Positions 4,699-63,710 of a stretch of 64,000 bases of DNA are shown here, in pieces. A program made the translations under genes and the position numbers. Numbering within the stretch: the first letter of the stretch is position 1; each line of letters opens with the position of its first letter. The notes beneath the pieces are model-generated. The model was not told where the DNA came from. It searched no databases and was given only the letters and a program-made list of their open reading frames with translations. The DNA is from Phocaeicola oris. Lineage in GTDB: Bacteria; Bacteroidota; Bacteroidia; Bacteroidales; Bacteroidaceae. Location: NCBI RefSeq assembly GCF_021295095.1, contig NZ_JAJLQX010000003.1:117326-181325 (forward strand), written 5' to 3'.

Positions 4699-4842
4699 TC
4701 ACAGATGTGATACATTCGTTTCACAGATGTGATACATTCGTTTCACAGATGTGATACACTTGTTTCACTGATGTGAGTCACTTGTTTCACCTATGTGAAA
4801 CAAGTAGATTATACGTATGAGTTGAGTGATTCATACGGTTCT
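4699..4842. repeat. 22-bp phased palindrome array, locus 1
   Basis: Seven cores start every 22 bp (4699, 4721, 4743, 4765, 4787, 4809, 4831). The first five are of the TCAC....GTGA flavour (TCACAGATGTGA three times, then variants). The sixth is TTATACGTATGA, the other flavour, in the same register. The seventh keeps only the left half (TCATACGG). Spacers are 10 nt, for example TACATTCGTT. The array lies between the convergent ackA and flavodoxin genes. The left flank (TTCATCAAAAGA...TTCGTT) is shared with the array near 27.9 kb. Confidence 0.9.
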
Positions 4843-5233
4843 CTTTTACTAATCTCTTTATGACAATTTTAAAGAACCTGATAAAAAGAGAAAAACATCG
4901 TTTTAAACATACTATAAGGTCGTATTCCATCTTTGTAGATTTCTACATAGGCTTCCTGTTATTTCATCGAATTCACGTAATTTTAAAATGCCACAACGCA
5001 ATTTGCTCCTTTTACTCCCTATCATAGCTTGGGATTTATCATATTGCTACAATAATTTACTGTTGACATGATTCTAAATACAGAAATCTGTCGGGTAATA
5101 TAATATTATGAAATAATGTACATAGTACCATGAGTCAATATTTTATATCAGACACATCGAAAAGACCGCTTTGGAAAGAAGCCATAGTGAACCTCTCACA
5201 TTTATTTAATTTACCATCAAGAGATAAAAAAAG

Positions 5234-5289
5234 TGACGCGCACGAATCGATTGACTCATACGCATCACCGGATAAATACTTCTGATATA
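5234..5289. repeat. 22-bp phased palindrome array, short copy (locus 1b)
   Basis: Two cores, TGACGCGCACGA (5234) and TCATACGCATCA (5256), and a terminal unit ACTTCTGATATA (5278), all in 22-bp register. The terminal unit matches the right ends of the arrays at 18.2 kb and 27.9 kb (ACTTCTGATGA-like), suggesting a defined element boundary. It shares the ackA-flavodoxin gap with the larger array at 4699. The rest of this gap (4850-5230) shows no gene I can support. Confidence 0.75.
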
Positions 5290-5361
5290 TTTTCATAAAT
5301 TCATGGGCATCATCCTGTCATTTAGTTTTGACACCTTCTATTTTGTGTTTAAATAACGAAC

Positions 5362-5868
5362 TTATGATAATTGAGACTTAATTGTATTTAACCAAGCGTC
5401 TATTCGAGCACCTGTTTTATCCGGCTCATTCACTTCATCCAGTGCCAAACCGACAAACATATCATCAACTACAGCTTCAGAATCATCGTATGTATATCCG
5501 GCAGTCGGGACTTGACCAATAACTTTTGCTCCACTCTCCTTTATTATATTATAAAGCTCACCCATTCCGCCACAGAAAGTGTCAGAATAATCACTTGAAT
5601 CCCCACAACCAAAAAGAGCTACGGTTTTATCTTTCAAATCAGCAGACGCTAATATTTTAACTCCATCATACCAATCATCCTGTAGTTCCCCAACACCCCA
5701 TGTGGAAGTACCGAGAAGTAAATTCTGATAACCATTTAGTTGTTCAGCGTTAAGTTTGGCTACATCAATTATATCAGAAGAATCCAAACCCAACTCTTTA
5801 CCAATCCGAGCAGCAAGTTCCTGACAAGTACCCGTTGAAGAACCATAAATAATACATGTTTTATTCAT
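5362..5868 (-). CDS. fldA: Flavodoxin (long-chain type)
   Basis: A 168-residue FMN-binding electron carrier, starting at 5868 (MNKTCIIYGSSTG); the frame extends to 5937, but the promoter lies inside that extension and excludes it. The FMN phosphate loop YGSSTGTC is at residues 8-15, followed by the flavin-flanking loops GTSTWGVGEL (about 57-66) and GCGDSSDYSDTFCGG (about 95-110). The loop inserted in the last strand marks the long-chain class used by anaerobes in place of ferredoxin. It is a single-gene transcript with its own good promoter at 5907-5937. The redox partner cannot be told from context. Confidence 0.95.
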   Translation of the reverse strand: MNKTCIIYGSSTGTCQELAARIGKELGLDSSDIIDVAKLNAEQLNGYQNLLLGTSTWGVGELQDDWYDGVKILASADLKDKTVALFGCGDSSDYSDTFCGGMGELYNIIKESGAKVIGQVPTAGYTYDDSEAVVDDMFVGLALDEVNEPDKTGARIDAWLNTIKSQLS

Positions 5869-5906
5869 ACTTTCTATTCCTTTAATATTAGTCTGTTTAT
5901 TGATTA

Positions 5907-5937
5907 CAAAATTAGATGAAAACCGAAAGCCACTCAA
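5907..5937 (-). promoter_or_regulatory. Promoter of the flavodoxin gene
   Basis: Reading the minus strand: TTG (5937-5935), 20-nt spacer, TAATTTTG (5914-5907). This fits the Bacteroidales -33/-7 consensus and places transcription start about 30 nt before the flavodoxin ATG at 5868. Confidence 0.7.
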
Positions 5938-6033
5938 TACCTAAAAATAATGATTTAAATAAAACGTATTGCTCTCTAATGAAAACAAGGAACTACGCCG
6001 GTTACATTAGCAATATTTTTACATAACCAATTA

Positions 6034-8826
6034 TTAATAGGCAGCATCTGATGAATAATCCTTAACTACAAATCGGTAGGTGCCTGAACCAACAGTCAAT
6101 CGTAGTTTTGAATCGAATTGATCTACATTTATATCTTTCTTTTGAGAAACAGGCTCACCAAAATCAGTAACATTTGTTATATCTTTCGTTGGAAGAACAA
6201 TCTTTGCGTTAGAATTTGCAGGGATTGTTACATCCAAAATATAATCAGCCCCTTTCAACTCCCATTTACACAAAATTGTTCCATAGGATGATTCGTATGA
6301 TGTTGTAACAGTTGTGACATCTCCTACTACTGACGGATTAATTAACACTTCGCTAAATGCCACCGACTCATCCGACTGTTTGATACCACCTAATCCGCTA
6401 AACAGCCATTCCATTAAATGCCCTAACATAAAGTGGTTATTGGATACAAATCCATAAGCCTGCCACGATTCTGTCAATGCCGTAGCTCCATGTGCCAACT
6501 GCCAACCATATCCCGGAACATCGTATTTGCAGTTCATATCATAGATAACATCCGATCGACCATATTTTTGCAATATTTGAAGAACATAGCGATAACCTAC
6601 ATCCCCTGCGGTCAGTGCGTTGTTTCTTCCTTGAATATCCTCAACCAGATTATGAAGTATATTACCGGCATATTCTTTATCCACAAGTCCGACAAATAAA
6701 GGCATCGCATTAGCGGTCTGACTATTTCGATCTATTTTCTTTGTTTGTTGATCAAAATAATGATTATTGAACGACTGCTTAATTTTTACAGCCAAAGCAG
6801 CATACTCAGAAGCATCGCTTGCATTACCCAGTACTGTTGCTATCTTCTGCATGATAGTTACATCATAATAATATACTGCCGTAGCTGTAACACCATTCGA
6901 TGTCAACTGAGAATATCCCGGGTCTTTCGGTCCAATATCAAACCAATCACCTAATCCATAAGCAATGATATGATCATTTGCTTTTGAGGAAAGATAATCT
7001 ATATAACGCTTCATTGAAGGATAAAAATTCTCAAAATTACTTTTATCCCCGTAGAACTTATAGGCATACCATGCAGAAATAATAAACGCGCTGCCCCATT
7101 CCGGAGTATCCTCGAATCCATTGGCAAAACGAACATACTCGGGAGCAATGGTAGGAATACAACCATCTGCACGCTGTGATGTATTCATATCGTTCTCCAA
7201 CTTCTCATATAAACGAGACATATTATACCTATATAATAAGGAATACATCATTAAATGATCTTGCTCCAGCCAACCCAATTTCTCTCTATGAGGGCAATCA
7301 GTCAGAACACTTGACATGTTACTTCGCATCGCCCAATCAATTAAAGTATAAATCCGGTTGAACAAAGGCTTGGAACAATAGAATGAACCCGCTTCCGGAG
7401 CAGAATTACAAGTATGCAAACTTGCTAAAGCTATTATCTCCGGCTGGTTACATGTATTTTCTTTTCCTACGGGAACAGCACCCTCCACCTGAACATACCT
7501 AAATCCATAATACGTAAACTGAGGTTGCCAAGTCTCTTCTTTTCCACCCTTCGTCTTATAAAGGAAATAGTACGGCTGTCCTGTTGCGCTCTGATTAACG
7601 GTACTATCCGGATTCAGAAGTTCGGCCGGACGAAGCAATATGTTTTTTGAATCAGCCGACTTTACTGTCAATCTCACAATTCCTGACAGGTTCTGACCAA
7701 AATCATAAACCCAGCCTTTTGTATTCTTGAATACTCTCACCGGTTGAAGAACAGAATGAATAGTAATAGGATTATCTTTTTCTGATTGCATCTTCGGATT
7801 ATAATCTGTAATAACAACCGACTGCCACTTACTATCATCATAATTCACATCTTTCCAACCGGCTAACTCTTTCGTCGCGTCATAATCTTCACCTCCATAA
7901 ATACTGGAGAAAGTAATCGGACTGTCGGTAGCTTTCCAAGACTTATCTGTTACAATATATGCAGTCGTACCATCGGAATATTCCAAGCGAAGCATCATCT
8001 TTAACTTAGGAGCTCCATAAGAAGTAATCAACTTATAATAACGATCGTTGGGTATGTTATAAAATCCATTACCCAACATCACTCCTAAAACATTCTCTCC
8101 ATCCTTTAAGTTCTCAGTTACATTAAAAGGAACATATAAGACTTCCTTGTCAAACTTTGTCCATCCCGGATCCAAGAAATGATTTCCTACTTTCTTGCCA
8201 TTGATAAAGAAATCAAACTGGCCTACTCCCGATACATAAGCAATGGCCTTAGCTAAAGACTTCTTCAAAGAGAACGTCCTCCGGAACTGAGGCAACTTAT
8301 AATTCCCAAACTGTTGGCCGCCAAAACGCTTTTGGGCTTCACCGTTATCGTTTACCGGCGGAAGGAACTCGAAAGCCTTATTATCTTTCTGCAATGCAAT
8401 CCATTTTGCATTTTGCCAGTCCGACTCTGAAAGGACACCCATTGAGAAAGAATAGATCTCACTCCAATTTGAAACCTTTCCGTTCTTATCCCATGTCCTA
8501 ACCCTCCAATAATAAGTAATCATAGCATTCAACTTGTTTCCGGAATAAGGAACCAAAACAGACTGACGGCTAATCACCTTTCCACTATCCCACATATTAG
8601 CCATATCTATTTTCGAAGCATCATCAGCAACTTCTATCTGATAGGCTGACTGTACAAAGTTCCGCTCTTCAGAGAAATGTTTCCAACTAAAACGAGGATT
8701 CGAAGTTTCAACTCCAAGCGGAGCTTTATCTAATTCGCATGTCAAATCGTACACAGAAAATGACGACAAAACAAAAAACAAAAGTAAACAACAAGGAATA
8801 CTCAAAAGGTAGTTCAATTTTATCAT
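6034..8826 (-). CDS. Alpha-L-rhamnosidase, glycoside hydrolase family 78
   Basis: A 930-residue secreted enzyme that should release terminal alpha-L-rhamnose from plant glycans, flavonoid glycosides or bacterial polysaccharides. An N-terminal signal peptide (MIKLNYLLSIPCCLLLFF) is followed by fibronectin-like and carbohydrate-binding beta domains to about residue 480, then the alpha/alpha barrel. The GH78 signature DCPHREKLGW is at 510-519, with likely catalytic acids D510, E515 and nearby D523. The base glutamate is in ATALTESW (E786). A C-terminal beta-sandwich ends the protein. It stands alone, 165 nt upstream of flavodoxin, with its own promoter, and no susC/D pair is adjacent. The family call is firm; the natural substrate is not known. 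Confidence 0.93.
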   Translation of the reverse strand: MIKLNYLLSIPCCLLLFFVLSSFSVYDLTCELDKAPLGVETSNPRFSWKHFSEERNFVQSAYQIEVADDASKIDMANMWDSGKVISRQSVLVPYSGNKLNAMITYYWRVRTWDKNGKVSNWSEIYSFSMGVLSESDWQNAKWIALQKDNKAFEFLPPVNDNGEAQKRFGGQQFGNYKLPQFRRTFSLKKSLAKAIAYVSGVGQFDFFINGKKVGNHFLDPGWTKFDKEVLYVPFNVTENLKDGENVLGVMLGNGFYNIPNDRYYKLITSYGAPKLKMMLRLEYSDGTTAYIVTDKSWKATDSPITFSSIYGGEDYDATKELAGWKDVNYDDSKWQSVVITDYNPKMQSEKDNPITIHSVLQPVRVFKNTKGWVYDFGQNLSGIVRLTVKSADSKNILLRPAELLNPDSTVNQSATGQPYYFLYKTKGGKEETWQPQFTYYGFRYVQVEGAVPVGKENTCNQPEIIALASLHTCNSAPEAGSFYCSKPLFNRIYTLIDWAMRSNMSSVLTDCPHREKLGWLEQDHLMMYSLLYRYNMSRLYEKLENDMNTSQRADGCIPTIAPEYVRFANGFEDTPEWGSAFIISAWYAYKFYGDKSNFENFYPSMKRYIDYLSSKANDHIIAYGLGDWFDIGPKDPGYSQLTSNGVTATAVYYYDVTIMQKIATVLGNASDASEYAALAVKIKQSFNNHYFDQQTKKIDRNSQTANAMPLFVGLVDKEYAGNILHNLVEDIQGRNNALTAGDVGYRYVLQILQKYGRSDVIYDMNCKYDVPGYGWQLAHGATALTESWQAYGFVSNNHFMLGHLMEWLFSGLGGIKQSDESVAFSEVLINPSVVGDVTTVTTSYESSYGTILCKWELKGADYILDVTIPANSNAKIVLPTKDITNVTDFGEPVSQKKDINVDQFDSKLRLTVGSGTYRFVVKDYSSDAAY

Positions 8827-8933
8827 ATAGTATTATATTTAATTGTATTCATCCAAAGATTACGTTTTAGCAAACTGCCAACCACCAACTTTCATTTGCA
8901 GTAACAGAAAACTCTCTTTCGTTGATTGAATTG

Positions 8934-8964
8934 CAAATTTAAAATAAGTCACGGGAAATACAAA
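8934..8964 (-). promoter_or_regulatory. Promoter of the GH78 gene
   Basis: On the minus strand TTTG (8964-8961), 19-nt spacer, TAAATTTG (8941-8934), an almost perfect Bacteroidales promoter about 108 nt before the rhamnosidase ATG. The 485-bp divergent gap to hmuY (8827-9311) holds this promoter and the hmu promoter; I see no further gene in it. Confidence 0.7.
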
Positions 8965-9243
8965 CACTCTCTTCGTCGATTTAATCTACTTGAACCATCT
9001 TCTTTTGCTTGTTTATTATATGAAGACTCTTCCCTGCACAACAGGAAACTACCTAAAAGTTGGTACAGTGCTCCTACACACAAGAAATAGGTACTTAAAA
9101 AACAAAAGAATACCTTTTCAAACGATATTCCATAAACAGATACCTATAAATCTGTATTCTCTATAATAGCACATTACTCCTTTTAGGTTAAATTATCAAA
9201 TTACTTTAGGCTTTTTACTGCTGTTTTTACTTGTTTTTAGGTA

Positions 9244-9274
9244 TTGATGCTATTTCTATTTCACCATACTTTTG
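9244..9274 (+). promoter_or_regulatory. Promoter of the hmu operon
   Basis: TTG (9244-9246), 20-nt spacer, TACTTTTG (9267-9274), 37 nt before the hmuY ATG. Iron or haem control is expected from the operon type, but I could not pick out a convincing Fur box. Confidence 0.7.
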
Positions 9275-9311
9275 CAATCGAAAATATAAACTATAAAAAC
9301 AACAAAAAATT

Positions 9312-9962
9312 ATGAATGCAAAGAAATACATGTCTATACTCGCTGTCGCACTGTGTTTGACAGCATGTAGTAAAAAAGATGATCCGGTTATCCCTGTAAA
9401 AAACAGCACAACAATTGATGCTTCTAAGTATGACCAGTGGACTTATATTAATCTTGAAACCGGTCAGACACAAACGTTACGCGATTTCAATAAATGGAAT
9501 TACCTGACTAAAGGAAATGTTGTAGAAACAGCCGAGGCACAAGGTAGTGAATCGGATATTAAAATAAAATGGCACATTGCCATTCACCGTTACGATATAA
9601 AGACCAATAACGGACAAGCCGTTGCGACTACAGAGACAGAGATGGATAAAGTAACAACTATTCCTACAAGCGGGTATAAAGGTGATGAAACTTTTGAGAA
9701 TAAGATAATCACTGATAGGTCAGGAATGTTCCAAGGGAAAATGGGCTATGCCGCTACTACCAAATTAAACGCCGTACTTTGTAGTTGGTTAACTGCAACT
9801 CCTACCCACACCATGCCTCCTTATACCTATTCGCCAACAAACTTAATCTATATTGTTAAGTTTATGGACGGCAGTTACGCCAAACTTAAATTTACCAATT
9901 ACCAAAATGCGGAAGGAAAAGACGGACACGTTACATTCACTTCTGTTTATATGAGTAAGTAA
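9312..9962 (+). CDS. hmuY: HmuY-family haem-binding lipoprotein
   Basis: A 216-residue haemophore-like lipoprotein that captures haem at the cell surface for the receptor HmuR. The lipobox LTAC puts the modified cysteine at residue 19, followed by an acidic KKDDP stretch of the kind that favours surface export in Bacteroidota. The core (Y-D-Q-W-T-Y-I-N-L-E-T-G-Q-T near residues 40-53 and a C-terminal FTNYQN...GHVTF) matches the HmuY beta-fold. Haem-ligating histidines of the Porphyromonas protein are not obviously conserved; HIAIHRYD (around 90-97) offers candidates. It is the first gene of a six-gene operon, 11 nt before hmuR. Confidence 0.88.
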   Translation: MNAKKYMSILAVALCLTACSKKDDPVIPVKNSTTIDASKYDQWTYINLETGQTQTLRDFNKWNYLTKGNVVETAEAQGSESDIKIKWHIAIHRYDIKTNNGQAVATTETEMDKVTTIPTSGYKGDETFENKIITDRSGMFQGKMGYAATTKLNAVLCSWLTATPTHTMPPYTYSPTNLIYIVKFMDGSYAKLKFTNYQNAEGKDGHVTFTSVYMSK

Positions 9963-9973
9963 GGAGGATTCAG

Positions 9974-12187
9974 ATGAGAAAAATTCTTCGCATTCTATTT
10001 CTCATGCTGACAGTTGCTTCTACCTCTTTGTATGCCGTAGAAGACGATGGATATATAAAATATCAGCTTAAAGGTACGATTACAGATAACGAAGGTAATC
10101 CACTGCCGGGAGCATCTGTAGTTGTCGTCGGGACAACTATCGGCGCAGGAACAAATTCCTCCGGGGAATTCTCTATTCTATTGAAAGAGATCAAGAGTGT
10201 TGTATTGCGTATCTCGTTTATGGGATATGAGCCCGTTACACTCTCTGCCACCCCGGGAAATCCTGTTACCGTAAATATGGTTCCTGCCGAAAATCAGCTG
10301 AACGATGTTGTAGTCACAGGTAGCCGGATAGAGAAACCATTAAAAGAAGTCCCGGTACTGACTCGAGTCATCTCCCAAACCGATATTGAAGCATTGAATC
10401 CTCTAAATATTGAATCACTACTACAATATGAACTGCCAGGCTTGCAAATTGTTTATAACTCCATGAGTCAACTCCCTGAGATTAAATATCAGGGAGTTGA
10501 TGGAGAATATATGCTGTTCCTTGTTGACGGAGAACGAGTTAGTGGTGAAGGAGCAGACCATAACGTTGATTTCTCCCGTTTCAACATTGATGACATCGAA
10601 CGCATAGAAGTTATCAAAGGAGCACAATCAACGGTATATGGTTCAAATGCTTTGGGCGGAGTAATCAATATCATTACGAAAAGCGCCAAACGCCCGTTCA
10701 CGGGAAACATCAGTACCCGATACGCAGGCAATAACGGGCAGAAGTATTCTGTATCAGCCGGTACAAAACAGAATAGATTCAGTTCTTTGTCAAGTATCAC
10801 ATACCGAATGAAAGATACCTATACGATTGGTGACAAAAAAGGAAAGACAATGAAAACGGTTTCTCCTGATGGCACAAAAGAAACCATAACAGACCCTTCC
10901 TCTACAACCATTTATGGATATCATATCTGGGATGCTTCACAGAAATTAGGATACGCTTTTACCGATAAGTTGAGCGGTGAAATAAAAGGAACATACTATC
11001 ACAATAAACGAGATATCAGGGTAGGGAAAGTATTCCAAGATTACTTCATTGACTATACGCTAAACGGGAAATTGAAATATCTGATTGGAGAAAAACAGGT
11101 ATTGACCGGTTCGTATGTCTTCGATAATTATAAAAAAGATAAAAACTATTTTGAAGCAGGTTTTACTCGCACCGACTACCGAAACAGACAACACATAGCC
11201 CGTTTAGATTATTCCGGAACCTTTGGGAAGCATACCATCAGTGCCGGTGGCGAAGGTAATTGGGAATACTTGAAACATTATATGCTAAAAGATAGTGCAA
11301 ATGCCAGCATAAATACCTATGCCATGTATTTGCAAGAAGATTGGAAGATAACAGATCAGTTAAATCTGATTGCCGGTATCCGTTCCGATTATCACGAAAA
11401 GTATCATTGGCATGTAACTCCTAAAGTCTCTATGATGTATCGTCCTATTGAGATTCTGACATTACGTGCCGGCTACTCTCAGGGATTCCGTTCTCCTACC
11501 ATCAAAGAGCTCTATGAGTATTATGATATGGGCGGAATGGGCTATTTCATGATTTATGGAAACAAAGATTTAAAACCGGAAACAAGTAATCAGTACTCTT
11601 TATCAGCCGAGGCAACTATTGGAGGATTCAATTTCTCTGTATCTGCCTCACATAACCGCTTTAAGAATAAAATCACCTTGGAAAATGTTGGTGACGGAAC
11701 AAATGATTTACGATATATCAACGCAGATAATGCTAAAGCCACCTCTTTAGAAACTATTATTCGATATAAAATACCTATGGGATTGATTTTTACCGGTTCT
11801 TATGCTTATGTGGATGATCATGAAGAAGTTAATGGTAAAAATACATCATCTGTCCGGCCACATACCATCACATTTAATGCGATGTATTCACATAAATATG
11901 GGAAAATCGGTGCCAATTGCTCCTTGAACGGACAATGGGCTTCAGCATTAGACCACTACACTTTTACGAATAACCAAACATATCGTATGGTGCATTATAA
12001 TGCAAGAACGATGTGCACCTTGAATATAGGCGCAACTTTCCCTCGTGGCATTGCTCTGAATGTTGGAGTTGATAACTTGTTCAATTACAAAGACAAAGCA
12101 TCCGATAGTTCGCTGCAGTTGCCACAGAAAGGAATCAGTTTTATAGGAACTCTAAATATCAATATAGCAGATTTTTTAGGAATTTAA
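9974..12187 (+). CDS. hmuR: HmuR-like TonB-dependent haem receptor
   Basis: A 737-residue outer-membrane transporter for haem or haemoproteins. A signal peptide ends near residue 22. A carboxypeptidase-regulatory-like domain (about 30-105, GTITDNEGNPLPGASVVV) precedes the plug, which starts at VVVTGSRIEKPLKEVPV near 110. The plug contains DGERVSGEG and GAQSTVYGSNALGGVINIIT. The rest is a 22-strand barrel ending in a phenylalanine-poor but typical strand (GTLNINIADFLGI). The FRSPTIKELYE motif common to haem/iron receptors is present near residue 507. The gene lies directly between hmuY and hmuS. Confidence 0.92.
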   Translation: MRKILRILFLMLTVASTSLYAVEDDGYIKYQLKGTITDNEGNPLPGASVVVVGTTIGAGTNSSGEFSILLKEIKSVVLRISFMGYEPVTLSATPGNPVTVNMVPAENQLNDVVVTGSRIEKPLKEVPVLTRVISQTDIEALNPLNIESLLQYELPGLQIVYNSMSQLPEIKYQGVDGEYMLFLVDGERVSGEGADHNVDFSRFNIDDIERIEVIKGAQSTVYGSNALGGVINIITKSAKRPFTGNISTRYAGNNGQKYSVSAGTKQNRFSSLSSITYRMKDTYTIGDKKGKTMKTVSPDGTKETITDPSSTTIYGYHIWDASQKLGYAFTDKLSGEIKGTYYHNKRDIRVGKVFQDYFIDYTLNGKLKYLIGEKQVLTGSYVFDNYKKDKNYFEAGFTRTDYRNRQHIARLDYSGTFGKHTISAGGEGNWEYLKHYMLKDSANASINTYAMYLQEDWKITDQLNLIAGIRSDYHEKYHWHVTPKVSMMYRPIEILTLRAGYSQGFRSPTIKELYEYYDMGGMGYFMIYGNKDLKPETSNQYSLSAEATIGGFNFSVSASHNRFKNKITLENVGDGTNDLRYINADNAKATSLETIIRYKIPMGLIFTGSYAYVDDHEEVNGKNTSSVRPHTITFNAMYSHKYGKIGANCSLNGQWASALDHYTFTNNQTYRMVHYNARTMCTLNIGATFPRGIALNVGVDNLFNYKDKASDSSLQLPQKGISFIGTLNINIADFLGI

Positions 12188-17240: not shown

Positions 17241-17854
17241 ACTATATTTCTAACGTATTATACTGGATTTCGACAGGCTTACTCGTTCCGGTTGTGGTGT
17301 TACTTATCATCTTTTTCATCCGGTCTATCCTATTGATAGGCAGTTTCTTTGGCCAATATATAACAGTCAAGAGAACAAATTCTATATTGAAAACGGCAAT
17401 CAATAACATCAACGCAGACAATATTGAAAACCTAAAAGAACAGTTACCACAGAAAAATTCTTCTTTAGTAATTGAATACATTTCCAGAATATTAGAAGCG
17501 AAAAACAGCCGGACACACATCAACCGTTTATTATCAGAATATGAAATAGCGGCTGATAAGGACTTGTCTACTTCTAAAACCCTAATAAAGATGGGGCCTA
17601 TGTTAGGACTTATGGGAACTTTAATCCCGATGGGACCTGCTTTGGTCGGATTGTCTACAGGTGATATTTCTTCTATGGCCTATAACATGCAGGTGGCATT
17701 TGCCACAACAGTCGTCGGATTGTTCTCCAGCGGTATAGGTTTTATGACCCAACAAGTAAAACAACGTTGGTATGTTCAAGATTTGTCAAATTTAGAATTC
17801 ATTTCTGAACTTTTAAAAGAAAGGAATAACAATGAGAAAACACCTGTTGAATAA
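17237..17854 (+). CDS. hmuU: HmuU, MotA/TolQ/ExbB-type proton-channel protein
   Basis: A 205-residue inner-membrane protein of the ExbB/TolQ/MotA family. It has an N-terminal helix (about 10-35) and a long cytoplasmic segment. A pair of helices follows, carrying the family signature GPMLGLMGTLIPMGPAL (about 117-133) and NMQVAFATTVVGLFSSGIG (about 149-167). It overlaps hmuT by 4 nt (ATGA). Such proteins normally form a pentameric channel driving a partner with a single membrane helix; the next gene, hmuV, encodes a small protein of just that topology. It probably energises haem handling by HmuS or HmuR, an inference from the operon. Confidence 0.88.
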   Translation: MNYISNVLYWISTGLLVPVVVLLIIFFIRSILLIGSFFGQYITVKRTNSILKTAINNINADNIENLKEQLPQKNSSLVIEYISRILEAKNSRTHINRLLSEYEIAADKDLSTSKTLIKMGPMLGLMGTLIPMGPALVGLSTGDISSMAYNMQVAFATTVVGLFSSGIGFMTQQVKQRWYVQDLSNLEFISELLKERNNNEKTPVE

Positions 17855-18158
17855 AGAAGAGGATAATGATCCGATGAGTGTGGTTAGCAATCTGTTTGAT
17901 GTTGCCATGGTCTTTGCCGTTGCCTTAATGGTTGCGTTAGTCAGCCGGTACAATATGACTGAAATGTTCAGTAAAGAAGACTTTACTATGATTAAGAACC
18001 CGGGGAAAGAGAATATGGAGATTATCACCAAAGAAGGACAAAAAATCAATAAGTATACTCCATCTGAAGATCAAAACTCAAAAGAGGGAAAAAGAGGGAA
18101 AAAAATTGGTATTGCCTACGAACTGGATAACGGAGAAATCATCTATATCCCTGAATAA
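17832..18158 (+). CDS. hmuV: HmuV, DUF2149 single-pass membrane protein
   Basis: A 108-residue protein with a short cytoplasmic N-terminus, one membrane helix (about residues 20-41, NLFDVAMVFAVALMVALVS) and a hydrophilic C-terminal domain ending in GEIIYIPE. The layout matches ExbD/TolR-like partners of ExbB proteins and the DUF2149 family found beside HmuS homologues. The start overlaps the end of hmuU by 23 nt. It is the last gene of the operon; 39 nt after its stop begins a 22-bp repeat array. Its partnership with HmuU is inferred from size, topology and overlap. Confidence 0.85.
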   Translation: MRKHLLNKEEDNDPMSVVSNLFDVAMVFAVALMVALVSRYNMTEMFSKEDFTMIKNPGKENMEIITKEGQKINKYTPSEDQNSKEGKRGKKIGIAYELDNGEIIYIPE

Positions 18159-18196: not shown

Positions 18197-18362
18197 TCAT
18201 ACGCATGAACTGTTCAACTCATGCGGATGAATCAACCAACTCATGCGGATGACTTGAGCAATTGATGCGGATGAACCGAGCAACTCATACGCATGAACCA
18301 TTCAACTCATACACATGAACTGATTTAATGCTTCTGATGATTAAAGAAACTCATACATATAC
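18197..18362. repeat. 22-bp phased palindrome array, locus 2
   Basis: Cores start at 18197, 18219, 18241, 18263, 18285 and 18307 (TCATACGCATGA, TCATGCGGATGA twice, TGATGCGGATGA, TCATACGCATGA, TCATACACATGA). Degenerate units follow at 18329 (TGCTTCTGATGA) and 18351. Spacers are 10 nt and often end in CAAC. The array fills the gap between the convergent hmuV and mrp genes, starting 39 nt after the hmuV stop. Confidence 0.92.
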
Positions 18363-27935: not shown

Positions 27936-28123
27936 TCACATAAGTGAAACAAGTGAATCACATGAGTGAAACAAGCGAATCACATGAGTGAAACAAGCGA
28001 ATCACATGAGTGAAACAAGCGAATCACATAAGTGAAACAAGCGAATCACATAAGTGAAACAAGTAAATGATACACATGAGTTTTGTAGATGATACGTATG
28101 AACAAACAAATACTTCTGATGAA
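27936..28123. repeat. 22-bp phased palindrome array, locus 3
   Basis: Nine units start at 27936, 27958, 27980, 28002, 28024, 28046, 28068, 28090 and 28112. The first six are TCACATRAGTGA cores with spacer AACAAGCGAA or close variants. The seventh and eighth are TGATACACATGA and TGATACGTATGA, the other flavour, in unbroken register. The ninth (ACTTCTGATGAA) matches the right boundary of other arrays. This is the one array between two genes on the same strand (MATE and DUF2141). The remainder of 27681-28418 shows only the DUF2141 promoter. Confidence 0.93.
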
Positions 28124-28347
28124 TACGGAAGCTCATCCACATTACTTTTCACATTCCTATACATCGAAACAAAAACTAAACTTTATTGCTTTCAAAAAAG
28201 CTGTATACCTATTTAAAAAGGAATGGGATACACAACACACATTACTTTAAGTAACATCTGACACACATTAAATAGTCATCCGCAATTTATTTTACGATTT
28301 GCATAAAATATTTTATTGAATAATTTTATTTATATTATAAACTAATT

Positions 28348-33373: not shown

Positions 33374-33473
33374 TTATGCGGATGAGTTAACAAAGTGATG
33401 CGGATGAGTTGACAAAGTGATGCGGATGAGTTGACAAGTTCATGCGTACGAGTTATTCAACTCATCCGTATTA
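33374..33473. repeat. 22-bp phased palindrome array, locus 4
   Basis: Five cores at 33374, 33396, 33418, 33440 and 33462: TTATGCGGATGA, TGATGCGGATGA twice, TCATGCGTACGA, TCATCCGTATTA. Spacers such as GTTGACAAAG are 10 nt. The array fills the gap between the convergent pepP and fkp genes. Confidence 0.9.
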
Positions 33474-41260: not shown

Positions 41261-41360
41261 TGATACGTATGAATCAACCAACTCATGCGGATGAACCGGT
41301 CAACTCATACGCATCAATTGAGTAACTCATACGCATCAGTTTTCATCTTCATACGCATCA
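41261..41360. repeat. 22-bp phased palindrome array, locus 5
   Basis: Five cores at 41261, 41283, 41305, 41327 and 41349: TGATACGTATGA, TCATGCGGATGA, then TCATACGCATCA three times. Spacers are 10 nt (ATCAACCAAC, ACCGGTCAAC, ATTGAGTAAC, GTTTTCATCT). It lies between convergent thiL and the 658-residue lipoprotein gene. The rest of the gap (41361-41524) shows nothing clear. Confidence 0.9.
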
Positions 41361-41524
41361 GAAATGTAGTTTATATTATTGATATCTCTAAAAGCAGTGT
41401 TTCTCCATTTAAGAAGAAGCAACGATACACTGTCCGTATTATTTCAGATTCGCCGGACTCATATTAGAATATTGAGATTCAGCCAAACAACCCTATCTTT
41501 TGTATTGGTGTCCCGCTGATTTTC

Positions 41525-54676: not shown

Positions 54677-54881
54677 ATCATTATTAAAGGTATTTATAAA
54701 TTTAATAAAAAAAATAATTTATAAGTCATTTTTTAAATAAAAATAATGTGAGTCCGATGAAATAATAGATGGTTCACGCAGAAACCTACGAAGATAGAAT
54801 ATGGCCTTATAGCATATTGGGGAGGTGTTTTATCCTTTTTGCTTGATCCATTAAAAAGGTCATAAAGAGATGGGGGAAAAG

Positions 54882-54981
54882 TTATGCGTATGAACCGGTC
54901 AATTCATGCGGATGAACTTGCCAACTCATCCGCATGAACCGGACAACTCATCCGCGTCAGTTGAGCAACTCATCCGCGTCA
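54882..54981. repeat. 22-bp phased palindrome array, locus 6
   Basis: Five cores at 54882, 54904, 54926, 54948 and 54970: TTATGCGTATGA, TCATGCGGATGA, TCATCCGCATGA and TCATCCGCGTCA twice. Spacers are ACCGGTCAAT, ACTTGCCAAC, ACCGGACAAC and GTTGAGCAAC. This is the one array between divergent transcripts (sigma factor and tRNA-Phe). The rest of 54682-55068 shows no gene. Confidence 0.9.
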
Positions 54982-55117: not shown

Positions 55118-55190
55118 GGTGCCTTAGCTCAGGTGGTAGAGCAATGGACTGAAAATCCATGTGTCCCCGGTTCAACTCCTGGAGGCACCA
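55118..55190 (+). tRNA. tRNA-Phe (anticodon GAA)
   Basis: A 73-nt cloverleaf. The acceptor stem is GGTGCCT/AGGCACC with discriminator A. The D arm is GCTCAGGTGGTAGAGC and the anticodon stem GGACT/AATCC flanks loop CTGAAAA (anticodon GAA). The T arm has GGTTCAACTCC. The CCA end is not encoded (CTT follows), so it must be added after transcription. Confidence 0.96.
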
Positions 55191-55254
55191 CTTCAAAGGG
55201 AGTAACTTCGGTGAGGCTGCTCCTTTTTTTATTTATACGCTTAACAACAATACA

Positions 55255-56160: not shown

Positions 56161-56161
56161 T

Positions 56162-56880: not shown

Positions 56881-56900
56881 GGAAGGATTTGATTCCTTCC
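56881..56900. terminator. Bidirectional terminator between menA-CPBP and the small basic gene
   Basis: GGAAGGA (56881-56887) and TCCTTCC (56894-56900) form a 7-bp stem with a 6-nt loop, flanked by A-runs on the left and T-runs on the right. It can end both convergent transcripts. This convergent gap has no 22-bp array. Confidence 0.75.
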
Positions 56901-56903
56901 CTT

Positions 56904-57104: not shown

Positions 57105-57105
57105 T

Positions 57106-57726: not shown

Positions 57727-57736
57727 GGTCATTCTA

Positions 57737-58402
57737 TTAAAAATCTAATTCCTCTATATCTGTCGCGTCAGCATATTCCTTTAACAGACGGATCATGTCA
57801 TTAGCAGCCTCCTGTAAGCCCAAGTTTCCACTATATCCATTGATGATAGCCAACAAATGCGTTGTATCCAAATCCATCTTTGTCCGTTCATGGTCGCTGG
57901 TCGGAGTTCCTACCCCTCCAAACGAATCGCGATAAACCGGCAAACCTTCTATATTCAGCAAACCGCGACCGATTCCTTCATATAGCTCACCTGCATTTCC
58001 TATACCAAGCGTCAAAGTATTCCCCTGAAACTTATCAGCATCGAACCCACCAATAGAATATCCATGACGAATAGAAATGACATTTATTAAATCGACGAGT
58101 GTATTTATCTGATAAAGAGGCAATCCCCGAACTATGCGACGGCACAGTCCCTCGTTCGACGGACGATACCGACTCGGATCTTTTCCACAGCGTCGATAGG
58201 CATCTCGAGTAGCTTTTATAGGAATAACTTCTTTCAACGAATCGGGTGTATATTTAATCCGATATTCCTTTGTCAATTGCTCTATTTCTTTCCAAAGGTC
58301 TGCATTGTAAAGACTGTTCTTCACAGAAGCAGCCACAGCTTTCCCCCGAAAATCGGGATTCTTCTCTCTGAATTCATCGGAAACTTTTATTTTAATGCTC
58401 AT
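57737..58402 (-). CDS. B3/4 (tRNA synthetase-like) domain protein
   Basis: A 221-residue soluble protein starting at [16 protein letters not shown]. The B3/B4 fold known from the phenylalanyl-tRNA synthetase beta subunit is indicated by [22 protein letters not shown] near 72-93, [18 protein letters not shown] and a GYSIGGFD strand. Stand-alone B3/4 proteins are suspected to edit or bind mischarged tRNA, not proven here. The start overlaps the obgE stop by 11 nt. Confidence 0.85.
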
Positions 58403-59573
58403 TCTCATCATCCTCGTCTTCGTATTCATACTCTATATCATCCAAATCATTCAATTCATCCCCTGCGCCAGCTTTCAAGTCATCATCCTGCCCCATAGCT
58501 TTCAGCTCGTCGGGTAAAAGTTTACTATCCTTCGGACGATGAACCAATGAATCTGCTTCCTGTTCTTTCAACAGATTGCTTTCCTTGTTCAACTCTGCCC
58601 AAAGAATATCTTTCAGTTCCGACAAACCCTTTCCTGTCACAGCAGAGAGAAATACGTGTGGAAGATCTTTCGGAAGAGTCGGTTCTATCAACTTCTTCAA
58701 TTCCTCGTCAATCAAATCGCACTTAGTTACAGCCAATACACGTTGCTTATCCAACATCTCAGGATTGAACTTTGTCAACTCATTCAACAAAATCTCATAT
58801 TCCTTACCTATATCATCCGTATCGGCAGGTATCATAAAGAGTAACAATGAATTCCGTTCTATATGACGAAGAAAGCGTAAACCTAATCCTTTACCTTCGC
58901 TGGCACCTTCAATAATTCCCGGAATATCAGCCATTACAAAAGAACGTCCATCGTGATAAGGCACAATTCCAAGATTTGGCTCCATGGTAGTAAACGGATA
59001 ATTGGCAATCTTTGGACGGGCAGAAGTGATGGCCGACAACAAAGTAGATTTTCCTGCGTTAGGGAATCCAACGAGTCCGACATCTGCCAATAACTTCAAC
59101 TCAAGAATAACGGTCAGCTCCTGCATAGGTTCTCCGGGCTGTGCATAGCGTGGAGCCTGATTTGTAGACGTACGGAAATGCCAGTTGCCCAAACCTCCGC
59201 GTCCGCCTTTCAACAAAACAAATTCCTGCTTATCTTTTATGATATCACAGATATATTCTCCGGTTTCTGCATTATATACGACAGTTCCACATGGTACATC
59301 AATGTACTTGTCGTCACCGTCTTTTCCAAAACATTTATTTCTTCCGCCATTACCCCCATGACGAGCAAAAGCATGACGCTCATATTTAAGATGAAGAAGC
59401 GTCCAATAATTTCTGTTACCCCGTAAGATGACATGTCCACCTCTTCCTCCATCGCCACCATCAGGACCACCATTCGGAATGTATTTCGCCCGATGCAGAT
59501 GCATAGAGCCACGGCCCCCCTTCCCCGAGCGGCAGTAAATCTTTACGTAATCAACAAAGTTTGATTCAGCCAT
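58392..59573 (-). CDS. obgE: GTPase ObgE/CgtA
   Basis: A 393-residue ribosome-associated GTPase needed for 50S assembly and growth control. The glycine-rich Obg fold occupies residues about 1-160 ([25 protein letters not shown]). The G domain follows, with G1 GFPNAGKST near 168, G3 DIPGIIEGA near 215 and TKCD (G4) near 285. The C-terminus is an acidic tail ([11 protein letters not shown]). It follows adk after a 63-nt gap containing a hairpin. Confidence 0.97.
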
Positions 59574-59591
59574 ATCTCTAAAAAATCAAAA

Positions 59592-59621
59592 TGTGAGGCT
59601 ACACTTCCGCATAACCTCACA
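59592..59621 (-). terminator. Hairpin between adk and obgE
   Basis: TGTGAGG (59592-59598) pairs with CCTCACA (59615-59621); on the minus strand it is followed by TTTTGATTTTTT. It probably ends or attenuates the hpt-adk transcript before obgE. Confidence 0.7.
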
Positions 59622-59636
59622 CAAATATAAACAAAA

Positions 59637-60212
59637 CTATTTATCCAAAGCATCAACAGCTTTGCAAATATCTCCGAAGATTCTCTCCATAGAACCTACT
59701 CCATCAATATGCTGATATTTGCCTTCTTTCTTATACCAGTCGATAACCGGAGCTGTCTGAGAATGATATACAACCAGACGATTCTTAATGGTCTCCTCGT
59801 TATCGTCCGCACGACCGGTTTCTTTTCCACGATTGATTAAGCGAACCATCAGCTCGTTCTCAGGAACTTCAAGACCTAACATCACAGAAACTTCCTGTCC
59901 ACGCTCAGCCAACATCTTCTTCAAAGCCTCAGCTTGAGCAGTAGTACGTGGAAAACCATCAAAGATAACACCTTTACCTTCTTTGAAACTATCTAATTTA
60001 GAAGCCAACATATTAATAATCAAATCATCAGGTAGAAGCTTTCCATTATCCATATAATCTTTTGCAATCTTACCCAACTCTGTTCCGTTCTTCAACTCAG
60101 CACGCAACACATCGCCGGTAGAAACGTGATTAATACCGTATTTCTTTACGATAAATTCGCTCTGTGTCCCTTTTCCTGAACCCGGAGCACCAAAAATTAC
60201 AATGTTCAACAT
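59637..60212 (-). CDS. adk: Adenylate kinase
   Basis: A 191-residue enzyme interconverting ATP + AMP and 2 ADP. The P-loop GAPGSGKGTQ is at residues 7-16; the AMP-binding stretch DGFPRTTAQAEAL is near 85. The LID is the short form (GKETGRADDNEETIKNRL) without the zinc-binding cysteines, which explains the length below the 215-residue long form. It lies 20 nt after hpt. Confidence 0.97.
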   Translation of the reverse strand: MLNIVIFGAPGSGKGTQSEFIVKKYGINHVSTGDVLRAELKNGTELGKIAKDYMDNGKLLPDDLIINMLASKLDSFKEGKGVIFDGFPRTTAQAEALKKMLAERGQEVSVMLGLEVPENELMVRLINRGKETGRADDNEETIKNRLVVYHSQTAPVIDWYKKEGKYQHIDGVGSMERIFGDICKAVDALDK

Positions 60213-60232
60213 ATTTATTCTTCTTTATATAA

Positions 60233-60772
60233 TTAATCTACAATAGTATAAATATCGCGATAATTACGACCAAGCTCTTCATAATCAAGACCGTAACCCA
60301 CAATAAACTCATTAGGAATGCGTATTGCCACATACTTTATATCCAATGAAACTTCTAACTTATCCGGTTTCAATAGCAACGTACAGATATTTATTTCCTT
60401 CGGATTCTTTGCTTTTAATGTCTCCACCAAACTCTTCATAGTAAAGCCGGTATCAATTATATCCTCCACAATGACTACCGTACGGTTGGTAATGTCCGTA
60501 TTCAACCCTACCAGTTCTTTCATTTTCCCCGTAGAACTGATTCCGGAATAAGAAGAATACTTTACGAACGAAATCTCAGCCGGTATGGTCAGATTACGCA
60601 TCAAATCGGACGCGAAGATAAACGAACCATTAAGAACACTCAGAAACAGCGGATCTTTACCAGCCATATCACGGCTAATCTCTGTCGCCACACGTTTCAC
60701 TTCCTTCAAAATGGTTTCTTCTTTAATAAAAGGTGTAAAACGTTTATCTTTTATTTGTATGGTTTCCATCAC
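60233..60772 (-). CDS. hpt: Hypoxanthine phosphoribosyltransferase
   Basis: A 179-residue purine salvage enzyme converting hypoxanthine (and guanine) with PRPP to IMP/GMP. The PRPP motif VVIVEDIIDTGFTM (about 98-111) is diagnostic. FLSVLNGSFIFASDLMRN (about 42-59) is the pyrophosphate loop and YVAIRIPNEFIVGYGLDY (about 147-164) the base-binding region. It is the first gene of an hpt-adk unit. A TATTTTTG -7 box lies at 60802-60795. Confidence 0.95.
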   Translation of the reverse strand: MMETIQIKDKRFTPFIKEETILKEVKRVATEISRDMAGKDPLFLSVLNGSFIFASDLMRNLTIPAEISFVKYSSYSGISSTGKMKELVGLNTDITNRTVVIVEDIIDTGFTMKSLVETLKAKNPKEINICTLLLKPDKLEVSLDIKYVAIRIPNEFIVGYGLDYEELGRNYRDIYTIVD

Positions 60773-60794
60773 CCTATCTCAATTATAATTGACG

Positions 60795-60802
60795 CAAAAA
60801 TA
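60795..60802 (-). promoter_or_regulatory. -7 box of the hpt-adk unit
   Basis: TATTTTTG on the minus strand, 22 nt before the hpt start. No -33 match at the usual distance. Confidence 0.4.
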
Positions 60803-60856
60803 CAACTTTTTCTCTCAATATAGAAGTTTTCTTTCTCTCTTCTTTTATAATTATGT

Positions 60857-60864
60857 TATCTTTG
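60857..60864 (+). promoter_or_regulatory. -7 box of the NAD(P)HX repair gene
   Basis: TATCTTTG, 42 nt before the ATG at 60907. Confidence 0.5.
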
Positions 60865-60906
60865 CCTAAGGAAATAGCTGAGAGTAGCTATTAAAATTGT
60901 GTAATC

Positions 60907-62427
60907 ATGAAAATATTAAGTAGTATCCAACTTAAAGAATTAGATAAATTTACCATCGACAACGAGCCGATTGCCTCGATTGACCTGATGGAACGTGCGG
61001 CTGTAGCACTGACTAATGCGATTATCCACCGTTGGGATACATCTTTTTTCATCAAAGTATTTGCAGGACCCGGAAATAACGGAGGTGACGCGCTGGCCGT
61101 AGCAAGAATATTATCTCAACACGGTTACGGAGTAGAAGTTTTTCTTTTTAATATCTCCGGAAAACTCAGTGAGGAATGCCGGACAAACCTTACCCGACTA
61201 AAAGATTGCGGTTCCATTTACTTTACTGAGATTACCACTCAATTCACTCCTTCGAAGCTGACGGAAAAAGATTTAGTTGTTGACGGACTTTTCGGTAGCG
61301 GCCTGAATCGCCCATTAAACGGTGGCTTTGCTGCTGTAGTTAAATACATCAACTCCTCACCTGCTCCGGTTGTTTCCATTGATATCCCTTCAGGATTGAT
61401 GGGAGAAGATAACACCATAAATGTCCGGACAAACATTATACGGGCAACGGTTACCCTGAGTATCCAATTTCCGAAACTCTCGTTCTTTTTCCCTGAGAAC
61501 GAAGATATTGTTGGAGAGGTAGAACTGCTGGACATCGGGCTGTGTTCGGAATACATCGAACATGCCGATACTCCTTATCATATTACGGAAGAACAGGAAA
61601 TCAAACAAATAATCAAACCTCGAAAAAAGTTTGCGCATAAAGGAACATTCGGCCACGGACTGCTCATTTCCGGAATGTACGGTATGGCCGGAGCATCTAT
61701 CTTGTCGAGCAAAGCTTGTCTCAAATCGGGTATCGGATTACTCACCGTTCATGTACCCATTCGTAATAATGATTTACTACAACTTGCTGTTCCGGAAGCC
61801 ATTGTTCACACTGACATGCATGAACTTTACTTCGCCATAGCCGAAAACGCGGATGATTATCAAGCTATTGCAATAGGACCGGGCATCGGACAGGAAGAAG
61901 ATTCTGCCTTTGCCCTGAAAGATCAGGTGGAAAAAACAAACAGACCAATGATATTCGACGCGGATGCGCTGAATATTCTAAGTTCACACCGCAATTGGTT
62001 AACCATGCTGCCAAAACATTCTATTCTAACCCCTCATCTTGGTGAGCTCGACCGGCTGATAGGCAAATGTACCGATACCTTCGAACGCATGAAAAAAACG
62101 AAAGAACTGGCTTTTTCATTGCAGAGTTATATCATCATGAAAGGACATTATACAATGGTCATTACTCCTGACGGGCATTTCTATCTTAATCCGACAGGCA
62201 ATCCGGGTATGGCAACCGCGGGAAGCGGCGATGTACTAACCGGCATTTTGCTGGCCTTGCTCGCCCAAGGATATAACTCTGAAGATACCTGCCGGTTAGG
62301 TGTTTACGCGCATGGATTAGCCGGTGATATAGCTGCGGAACAGAAAGGTGAAATAGGCATGACTTCGACAGATATCATTGAAGCTTTACCTTATGCTTGG
62401 AAGAAATTGGTCGGAAACAAGAGCTAA
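60907..62427 (+). CDS. nnr: Bifunctional NAD(P)H-hydrate epimerase / dehydratase
   Basis: A 506-residue repair enzyme that rescues hydrated NADH and NADPH. The N-terminal YjeF epimerase domain (about 1-215) contains the FAGPGNNGGDALAVAR motif near 53-68 and VDGLFGSGLNRPL near 122. The C-terminal dehydratase (about 225-506, ribokinase-like) has HKGTFGHGLLISGMYGMAGA near 242-261, AIGPGIGQ near 322 and NPTGNPGMATAGSGDVLTG near 432-450 (quoted as parts of the ATP site). The fusion is the common bacterial form. Confidence 0.95.
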   Translation: MKILSSIQLKELDKFTIDNEPIASIDLMERAAVALTNAIIHRWDTSFFIKVFAGPGNNGGDALAVARILSQHGYGVEVFLFNISGKLSEECRTNLTRLKDCGSIYFTEITTQFTPSKLTEKDLVVDGLFGSGLNRPLNGGFAAVVKYINSSPAPVVSIDIPSGLMGEDNTINVRTNIIRATVTLSIQFPKLSFFFPENEDIVGEVELLDIGLCSEYIEHADTPYHITEEQEIKQIIKPRKKFAHKGTFGHGLLISGMYGMAGASILSSKACLKSGIGLLTVHVPIRNNDLLQLAVPEAIVHTDMHELYFAIAENADDYQAIAIGPGIGQEEDSAFALKDQVEKTNRPMIFDADALNILSSHRNWLTMLPKHSILTPHLGELDRLIGKCTDTFERMKKTKELAFSLQSYIIMKGHYTMVITPDGHFYLNPTGNPGMATAGSGDVLTGILLALLAQGYNSEDTCRLGVYAHGLAGDIAAEQKGEIGMTSTDIIEALPYAWKKLVGNKS

Positions 62428-62442
62428 TTGCAAAAGAATTAC

Positions 62443-62450
62443 TAACTTTG
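62443..62450 (+). promoter_or_regulatory. -7 box of the DUF4831 gene
   Basis: TAACTTTG, 27 nt before the ATG at 62477. It lies inside the longest open frame and supports the shorter protein. Confidence 0.5.
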
Positions 62451-62476
62451 TTCATCGTATTCATAATAAATTATAT

Positions 62477-63532
62477 ATGAAGAAATTATTATTAGCCATA
62501 GGATGCTTGTTTACTTTAGGTGTTAACGCTCAGGACTATAGCGCATACGCTCCAAGCAACTTGGGTGAGGGAATAGTTTACTACTTACCAAAGACAGTTA
62601 TTGACATCGAGGTTGTCGCCACTAAGATACACTATACTCCCGGTGACCTTTGTCTGTACGCCGGTCGTTACCTCAGAATGAATAATGTATCGGACACACC
62701 TGAAACTCATTGGGAGATTAAAGCAGTGAATGTTACGTCAAAAGGTATTCCCGACACGGAAAATGCATATCAAGTAAAAGTGAAGGACAAAGATTTATCA
62801 TCTAATGTTCAACTGACAAGAGAAGGGCTGATTGAAGCTATCAATACCACAGCTCCGGAGACGGTTAAACAGCCGATAACTGAAAACAAATCGGCTGATA
62901 TGAAACTGGATCCAAACAAATACCTTACAGAAGATATTCTGAACGCAACTTCCACTGCAAAAGAAGCCGATTTGGTAGCCAAAGAAATCTATAACATCCG
63001 CGACAGTAAGAAAACGTTGGTGAGTGGTCAGGCTGATAATATGCCGAAGGACGGTACTTCGTTGAAGTTGATGCTTGAGAATTTAGAAGAACAAGAACAG
63101 GCTCTGACTCAGCTCTTTGCCGGTGTAACTACGAAAGAAGAACAAATATTTCACTTCTTGATTGCTCCGGAAGATAAAATGGTTGACAAGATTGCATTCC
63201 GTTTTTCAAATAAGTTGGGTGTACTGGACGCCAACAATTTGGCAGGTACTCCGGTTTATATCTCAATTAACAGTACAGAACCGATTCCTGAACTCGATCC
63301 GAAGACGGCAGAAAAGAAAAAGAAAATCAATGGAATTATCTATAACATCCCCGGCAAGGCGAATGTAAAGATCAACACCACCGAGAAGACATGGTTCAAT
63401 GGCGAACTCCTTGTTACTCAATTCGGTTCAACAGAAGTTTTAGTTAATGACTTGTTTAAGAGTAAAGTTAATACGAAAGTTATATTTAACCCTGAAACCG
63501 GCTCTATTATAAAAATCGACAAAGATATTTGA
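62477..63532 (+). CDS. DUF4831 exported protein
   Basis: A 351-residue protein starting MKKLLLAIGCLFTLGVNAQ, a clear signal peptide with cleavage after NAQ. The frame is open 33 codons further up, but those overlap the previous gene and the promoter. The body is beta-rich with LGEGIVYYLPKTVIDIEV near 25-42, a central helical KEAD..AKEIYNIRDSKKTLVSG segment and a C-terminal FGSTEVLVNDLF stretch. DUF4831 is a Bacteroidota family of unknown function. No lipobox is seen, so it is probably periplasmic. A terminator follows at 63554. Confidence 0.82.
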   Translation: MKKLLLAIGCLFTLGVNAQDYSAYAPSNLGEGIVYYLPKTVIDIEVVATKIHYTPGDLCLYAGRYLRMNNVSDTPETHWEIKAVNVTSKGIPDTENAYQVKVKDKDLSSNVQLTREGLIEAINTTAPETVKQPITENKSADMKLDPNKYLTEDILNATSTAKEADLVAKEIYNIRDSKKTLVSGQADNMPKDGTSLKLMLENLEEQEQALTQLFAGVTTKEEQIFHFLIAPEDKMVDKIAFRFSNKLGVLDANNLAGTPVYISINSTEPIPELDPKTAEKKKKINGIIYNIPGKANVKINTTEKTWFNGELLVTQFGSTEVLVNDLFKSKVNTKVIFNPETGSIIKIDKDI

Positions 63533-63553
63533 TCATCAATAATCATAAAACAG

Positions 63554-63590
63554 GAGGATGGAAGCGTTAAGTTCCATCCTCTTGTTGTTT
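63554..63590 (+). terminator. Intrinsic terminator after the DUF4831 gene
   Basis: GAGGATGGAA (63554-63563) and TTCCATCCTC (63572-63581) form a perfect 10-bp stem with an 8-nt loop, followed by TTGTTGTTTT. Confidence 0.85.
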
Positions 63591-63610
63591 TATCAAAAGA
63601 ATGACATAAC

Positions 63611-63710
63611 TGATCCGTATCATCCGCCAAAGTGATACGGATCAGTTGCTCAACTCATGCGTATCATTCACTGAAAAGATACGCATGAACTTACTCGATG
63701 ATACGCATCA
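63611..63710. repeat. 22-bp phased palindrome array, locus 7
   Basis: Five cores at 63611, 63633, 63655, 63677 and 63699: TGATCCGTATCA, TGATACGGATCA, TCATGCGTATCA, AGATACGCATGA and TGATACGCATCA. Spacers are 10 nt, including the palindromic GTTGCTCAAC. It begins 30 nt after the terminator arm that ends the DUF4831 transcript. The next stretch looks like a mobile element edge. Confidence 0.9.

Follow-up and report, generated by a model that had tools for sequence, protein, structure and literature searches.

In a 64-kb window of Phocaeicola oris DNA (the whole stretch of 64,000 nucleotides that was analysed, contig NZ_JAJLQX010000003.1), intergenic tandem arrays were found in which a conserved 12-nt near-palindromic core is repeated with an exact pitch of 22 bp, that is, of two helical turns, and the same family is dispersed over the genome in at least 107 arrays. 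We tentatively consider these arrays to be DNA-level sites for dimers set in two-turn phase and spread partly by miniature inverted-repeat transposable elements (MITEs), a reading which we regard as quite possible. According to it, head-to-tail dyad sites spaced by two helical turns would bring homodimers of one DNA-binding protein to one face of the helix, where they would cooperate, and arrays lying away from gene starts and nearer to gene 3' ends might act between transcription units as docking or topology sites, by analogy with bacterial interspersed mosaic elements (BIMEs), possibly with an insulating role. Each species of the group would possess its own family, new copies of which would spread within the genome, and in P. 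oris this spread would partly have taken the form of non-autonomous elements with probable IS982-type ends.

Exact pitch and conserved core of the arrays

The following arrays are located in the window:

4699..4820, no strand assigned: array of 6 units, TCAC-type cores and then one TTAT...ATGA unit
5234..5267, no strand assigned: two-unit remnant, the first core of which does not fit
18197..18340, minus strand (orientation of GTTG-NN-CRRT): array of 7 units, 6 with a perfect core
27936..28101, no strand assigned: array of 8 units, 6 TCACATRAGTGA cores and 2 TGAT...ATGA cores after them
33374..33473, plus strand, weak orientation: array of 5 units, 37 nt 3' of the aminopeptidase P gene
41261..41360, minus strand: array of 5 units, 50 nt 3' of the AIR-synthase-related gene
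54882..54981, minus strand: array of 5 units
63611..63710, no strand assigned: array of 5 units, with the end of a type D element (repeated and unrelated) as its right border

An earlier note on this DNA had described eight sites in 22-bp register; seven of them are strong (5–8 units each, 41 in total), while the part at 5234 holds two units only, the first of which ends in CGA and lacks the core, and this site is treated as a remnant. The core pattern proposed there covers most of the units at the seven strong sites, since 34 of the 41 match TSAYNNNNRTSA at each fixed position and 7 do not. The expectation that such arrays are commoner than in shuffled sequence was confirmed, with 7 arrays in the window versus a mean of 0.05 and a maximum of 1 in 20 first-order Markov shuffles; six arrays have at least three perfect units, where another set of 20 shuffles gave a mean of 0, and the narrower core TCATNCGNATGA was counted 7 times versus 0.08 expected. 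As a separate check, Tandem Repeats Finder indicated a 22-bp period at 4693, 18197, 27936, 33376, and 54884, and an Rfam scan of the window at the gathering threshold gave a tRNA as the single match and no match to the arrays. With 7 window arrays against 0.05 expected and 107 distinct arrays genome-wide, chance or an assembly artefact is an extremely improbable source.

The genome-wide number was obtained for 2,975,682 bases, window included, from three batches of stretches around matches. One window array as a query gave at least 54 genome matches (the best 40 of 188 candidates were scored), and R1, a sequence-only model made from three oriented units, gave at least 222 (the best 150 of 2263 candidates were scored). 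The arrays consist of 4–10 units, most commonly of 6 (35 of the 106 arrays with at least three perfect cores).

Core conservation was estimated in one unselected unit per array (n = 106), flanked by perfect cores 44 bp apart, which limits circularity. The core letters were kept in nearly all of these middle units (T1 in 106, A3 in 104, T4 in 101, C6 in 102, G7 in 101, A9 in 102, T10 in 104, and A12 in 104), and information reached approximately 1.2 bits at each S position, 0.4 bits at each of the two central N, and 0.1–1.2 bits in the spacer. The pairs of S positions (n = 104) were C..G in 70, C..C in 18, G..G in 14, and G..C in 2 units; the S positions vary independently, in the manner of separate half-sites. 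Centres that are self-complementary are infrequent, with G..C in 5 units versus about 22 expected and C..G in at most 1 versus about 10, as calculated from column counts.

The spacing between neighbours is exact: 419 pairs of consecutive perfect cores are 22 bp apart, none is at 19–21 or 23–25 bp, and one is at 18 bp. Adjacent units differ at 2409 positions, 1716 of them in spacers, which is 41% of the 4190 spacer positions. In module A of the same elements (see below) 107 gap openings accompany 1205 substitutions (ratio 0.089, 45 pairs), and in module C there are 29 gap openings versus 165 substitutions; at the module A rate about 150 spacer indels would be expected, the pairs being non-independent. 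In all, 11 off-register core pairs at 18–26 or 40–48 bp were met, which are read as chance cores, overlapping cores at 4721–4769, or stretches containing a module end. Both the spacing and the core (TSAT-NCGN-ATSA) look constrained.

The spacer had been described as often approaching GTTG-NN-CAAC; this form is in the minority, 10 of the 195 spacers in oriented arrays, where GTTG-NN-CGGT (40) and GTTG-NN-CGAT (31) are common. Because most spacers are GTTG-NN-CRRT, the unit has a direction, which the earlier note overlooked, as it did the flanking modules of some arrays and the occurrence of the design in other species.

Placement, orientation, and folding

Placement was determined by simple longest-open-reading-frame gene calls for the 100 P. 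oris arrays flanked by a gene at either end; the other 7 lack this and were dropped. Tandem gene pairs enclose 46 arrays, convergent pairs 31, and divergent pairs 23, and in tandem pairs 39 of the 46 arrays are nearer to the upstream stop (median 115 nt) than to the downstream start (294.5 nt). For 23 arrays of other genomes with both flanks available the placement was convergent in 10, tandem in 10, and divergent in 3 cases. A tRNA-Phe gene is located at 55118–55191, 136 nt past the 54882 array.

Between tandem genes the arrays were oriented in the sense of transcription in 20 of 22 cases in the first batch (L009–L046 and the window), in 3 of 16 in the second (L277–L316), and in 3 of 7 in the third (L322–L341; 8 arrays, one of which was set aside for weak orientation), that is, in 26 of 45 altogether, and another orientation rule gave 23 of 36 for the first two batches. 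No preference relative to transcription is shown, and the batches differ. An explanation by RNA of 3' untranslated regions, prompted by the first batch, was dropped as the main one after the later batches.

The palindromic units may also be seen as chains of hairpins, either in RNA, as two-way terminators or stabilisers of mRNA 3' ends, or as cruciforms in supercoiled DNA, so that the fold and not a protein site would be kept; we consider this possible but rather unlikely. The 106 arrays fold far better than dinucleotide shuffles, with a mean z of −4.7 and −3.9 on the two strands, and good folding is also found with the unrelated sequences of other species, where 36 arrays of 21–23 bp gave a median z of −3.18 on the better strand and 25 of them were below −2, the corresponding shares being 29% for random intergenic pieces (n = 80) and 14% for arrays with other lags (n = 35); eleven loci of this test came from array matches. 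GU-compatible spacer positions number 382 versus 40 for one strand of each array, the better one being picked each time, covariation in the spacer register is slightly above shuffles (0.207 versus 0.176, 26 of 500 shuffles being as high), and cells of this register changed on both sides number 8 versus 3.9 (6 of 500 shuffles). Good folding and slight covariation keep the hairpins under consideration; however, pairing in the core register is no better than in shuffles (85.5% versus 87.1%), the S positions are without compensation in either register, orientation is independent of transcription, and RNA hairpins do not need an exact 22-bp pitch. The RNA hairpins suggested in the earlier note thus stand in so far as the palindromes fold, while as a selected feature, with little covariation and no orientation preference, they found little or no support.

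Flanking modules and families of other species

Part of the arrays are flanked by shared modules, the outer ends of which start with AACGTGAGTTCGAYGAA or a near variant, hereafter the terminal inverted repeat (TIR). In the window these are the following:

4528..4981, no strand assigned: MITE-like element of 454 bp that encloses the 4699 array, with inverted terminal repeats at both ends
4528–4546 (plus strand, 0 mismatches) and 4963–4981 (minus strand, 3 mismatches): termini of this element
28102..28276, no strand assigned: type B module adjoining the 27936 array on its right, its TIR-like end having 6 mismatches
41361..41467, no strand assigned: type C module adjoining the 41261 array on its right, its TIR-like end having 5 mismatches
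54743..54881, no strand assigned: type A module, outer TIR at 54743–54761 with 3 mismatches

Module A, B, or C is recognisable on 26 of 107 arrays (29 if the unrelated type D is included), and in 16 of 17 cases A follows the array (3' side), while in 19 of 20 B or C precedes it (5' side). The module-bearing arrays are directional leader-array-tail elements, the inverted ends of which are probably of IS982 type. Outward TIRs with at most 4 mismatches are present at 33 of 214 array ends versus 2 in the inward control; they belong to 29 of 107 arrays, 4 of which have them at both ends, and decay may mask modules or TIRs on further arrays. With modules and TIRs on such minorities, IS982-derived MITE membership does not extend to every array, and no clean target-site duplication was seen by eye in the flanks of three elements that have a TIR-like site at each end.

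In the whole genome the TIR occurs 57 times at up to 2 mismatches, and several occurrences lie about 109 bases from a contig end, which suggests a repeated insertion sequence (IS) that broke the assembly; the copies at contig ends are truncated by the assembly. In the sister genome G026 an exact TIR adjoins an open reading frame with a partial DDE_Tnp_1_3 match (41 bits, cut-off 27), the same frame scoring 33 bits with the NCBIfam IS982 model, below the cut-off of 130. In P. oris itself an IS982 transposase is intact (220 bits with NF033520, cut-off 130) and has an array 162 bp downstream of it; for this copy the TIR was not found at fewer than 4 mismatches. Judging from these sequences, an IS982-type parent of the modules is probable.

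At 5 of the 107 arrays (window 63711–64000; L013, L019, L044, L325) the end of the type D element touches the array or reaches into it. REPs, the repetitive extragenic palindromic sequences, are reportedly IS targets, and by analogy an IS may use the present arrays as a target.

Outside P. oris the unit itself is almost absent: R1 matches were obtained in 2 of 35 genomes of the same genus and in 0 of 24 genomes of the same order (94 candidates scored in each, with stricter filters), and within about 400 bp downstream of the aminopeptidase P gene of eight sister genomes (L087–L094) no array of this unit was seen by eye. The pitch, however, recurs by a model-free lag measure; this used a 44-bp window with at least 28 identities at the lag, outside open reading frames of 90 codons, with low-complexity events removed and with three stretches picked for containing matches left out of the counts. 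Lag 22 was observed in 10 of 20 events in genus stretches (740 kb). In 80 named loci, mostly Bacteroidales by title and all around one gene (626 kb), 9 of 35 events had lag 22, 4 had lag 21, and 3 had lag 23. The 14 events of order stretches (273 kb) included one of lag 22, one of lag 21, and two of lag 23; other orders of the class (120 kb) gave lag 22 in 1 of 7 events, other classes of the phylum (260 kb) in 0 of 6, and Escherichia coli (100 kb) had no events at any lag. A smaller excess was noted for lag 11, or half the pitch (5 events in the 626 kb of named loci, L116–L195, and 3 in 340 kb of genus stretches, L258–L274), and an excess for lag 14 in the named loci (5 events).

The consensus units elsewhere are unrelated to that of P. 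oris, for example TATCAGCTGATAGAATTTCTTC, CACATACTTACGTGTGAGCTCA, and TTAAAACGCAAGTGCGTTTTGC. When one array each from G017, G002, and G026 was searched in six sister genomes, the G017 array had 28 matches in G017, 2 in G007, and 0 in the four others, the G002 array had 12 matches, most of them weak, in G002 only, and the G026 array had 49 matches in G026 only. In the sampled genomes, pitch and dyads are general and the letters are private. Among these families, G026 (L354–L359) carries large composite arrays with mixed lags of 21, 22, 42, 43, and 44 bp, and in G002 (L348, L349, L351, L352) cores such as CACATATATATGTG and CGTATATACGTG alternate purine and pyrimidine, so that Z-DNA or cruciforms are possible.

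Modules and private families keep a purely selfish or neutral origin in consideration, in which minisatellites would be carried on IS982-type MITEs with no host function and the pitch would be a by-product of repeat making. The directional elements, the excess of outward TIRs at array ends, the intact IS982 transposase, and the precedent of BrickBuilt in Porphyromonas gingivalis (PMC4596501) agree with it. Against it are the lack of register shifts between adjacent units and the strong conservation of the core despite the 41% of spacer differences, as well as the 81 of 107 arrays on which module A, B, or C is unrecognised; also, within 3 kb at each of 14 loci from G002, G017, and G026, the closest match to the TIR carries 4–6 mismatches, a value for which the chance level was not set. 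We consider this origin unlikely.

Independent half-sites, the exact two-turn pitch, and the lack of orientation preference together favour an array of DNA-level sites for a dimeric protein, and the same-face layout proposed in the earlier note agrees with the exact pitch, the conserved core, and the recurrence with unrelated sequences in Bacteroidales. Several observations weigh against this reading. No array-binding protein was identified, no scan aimed at one having been made, and with private sequences the specificity of such a protein would have to shift from one sister species to the next. Some species have a pitch of 21 or 23 bp, and in G026 21 and 22 are mixed, so that exactness is shown for the P. 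oris genome only. In this genome, perfect cores one unit further apart are at 44 bp in 12 pairs, at 43 bp in 3, and at 45 bp in 3, and two of the 43-bp pairs (L290, L329) may reflect slips of a single base across a degenerate unit; array finding relied on 22-bp queries, by which broken arrays may be under-sampled, and the indel yardstick comes from non-independent pairs. Divergent placement of 23 of 100 arrays exceeds what would be expected of an element confined to 3' ends. In lag-22 arrays of other genomes the circular palindrome test gave p < 0.05 in 5 of 21 only, the folding test being the clearer of the two.

An extension of the dimer-site reading to a class of two-turn dyad arrays across Bacteroidales is conceivable, though doubtful; in it the sequence would be replaced between sister species, with the 22-bp pitch, the dyads, and the avoidance of gene starts kept, since a conserved host DNA-binding system would read the geometry and co-evolve its specificity. 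Should the letters be exchanged at a constant pitch, it is geometry that would be constrained, and all of an order of abundant gut bacteria would have in common an intergenic DNA system so far unrecognised, a counterpart to the BIMEs of enterobacteria. A fast-changing DNA-binding partner is then predicted, and a change of spacing with the sequence kept would provide a handle on the separation of transcription units.

Comparison with known systems

The REP and BIME elements of enterobacteria are dispersed extragenic palindromes, tandem or mosaic, mostly located away from promoters, and in those associated with a RAYT one end of the palindrome reportedly bears a tag, GTAG or CGTC. The present arrays resemble them as dispersed extragenic palindromes positioned away from gene starts and differ in being long, with a fixed 22-bp pitch and a species-private unit. 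The Y1 transposase of the REP-associated tyrosine transposase (RAYT) type (PF01797) had 0 matches in the P. oris genome (G000, 95% complete) and was found in 5 of 14 control genomes, and by this test a REP/BIME system with RAYT was rejected.

The statement of the earlier note that no named repeat family has this layout holds for the sequence as far as searched, and no report of a general 22-bp repeat class in Bacteroidales was found in the open-licence literature; however, there is one named element built on the same plan. This is BrickBuilt, a MITE of P. gingivalis, described in PMC4596501 with a 23-nt unit AGAYCATARTATCCTCTCRTRTG, the TIR GAGACCTTTGCA, and 19 copies. It is likewise intergenic and species-limited, with a tandem unit of about two helical turns, IS-type terminal repeats, and predicted stem-loops, and its leader and tail differ around the array, as found here for the 26 arrays with module A, B, or C. 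The differences concern the unit, which in P. oris is 22 bp long and of unrelated sequence, the TIR, which is AACGTGAGTTCGAYGAA in place of GAGACCTTTGCA, and the number, with at least 107 arrays versus 19 copies. The DUF2149 gene (17832–18158) adjoining the 18197 array has a counterpart next to BrickBuilt_8 (Table 1 of that paper), possibly a coincidence.

In Table 2 of the same paper, MITE239 and ISPg3 of P. gingivalis have the TIRs ACGTGAGTTCGA and ACGTCAGTTCGA, nearly identical to the TIR of P. oris; the MITE239 group (printed 236 there) and the 700 group seem, according to that paper, to be without mini- or microsatellites. MITECca01 of Cardinium, likewise from a Bacteroidota genome, is an IS982-derived MITE and differs in its size of about 240 bp, the word "tandem" never being used in the main text of PMC9769881 as far as available. 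A general two-turn class is not proposed in the available part of the BrickBuilt paper, and BrickBuilt itself may be one case of such a wider class; if the class is real, BrickBuilt-like elements would represent one case of a broader pattern. The P. oris array family is a variant of its own of the BrickBuilt-like plan, separated from BrickBuilt by its unit and its TIR.

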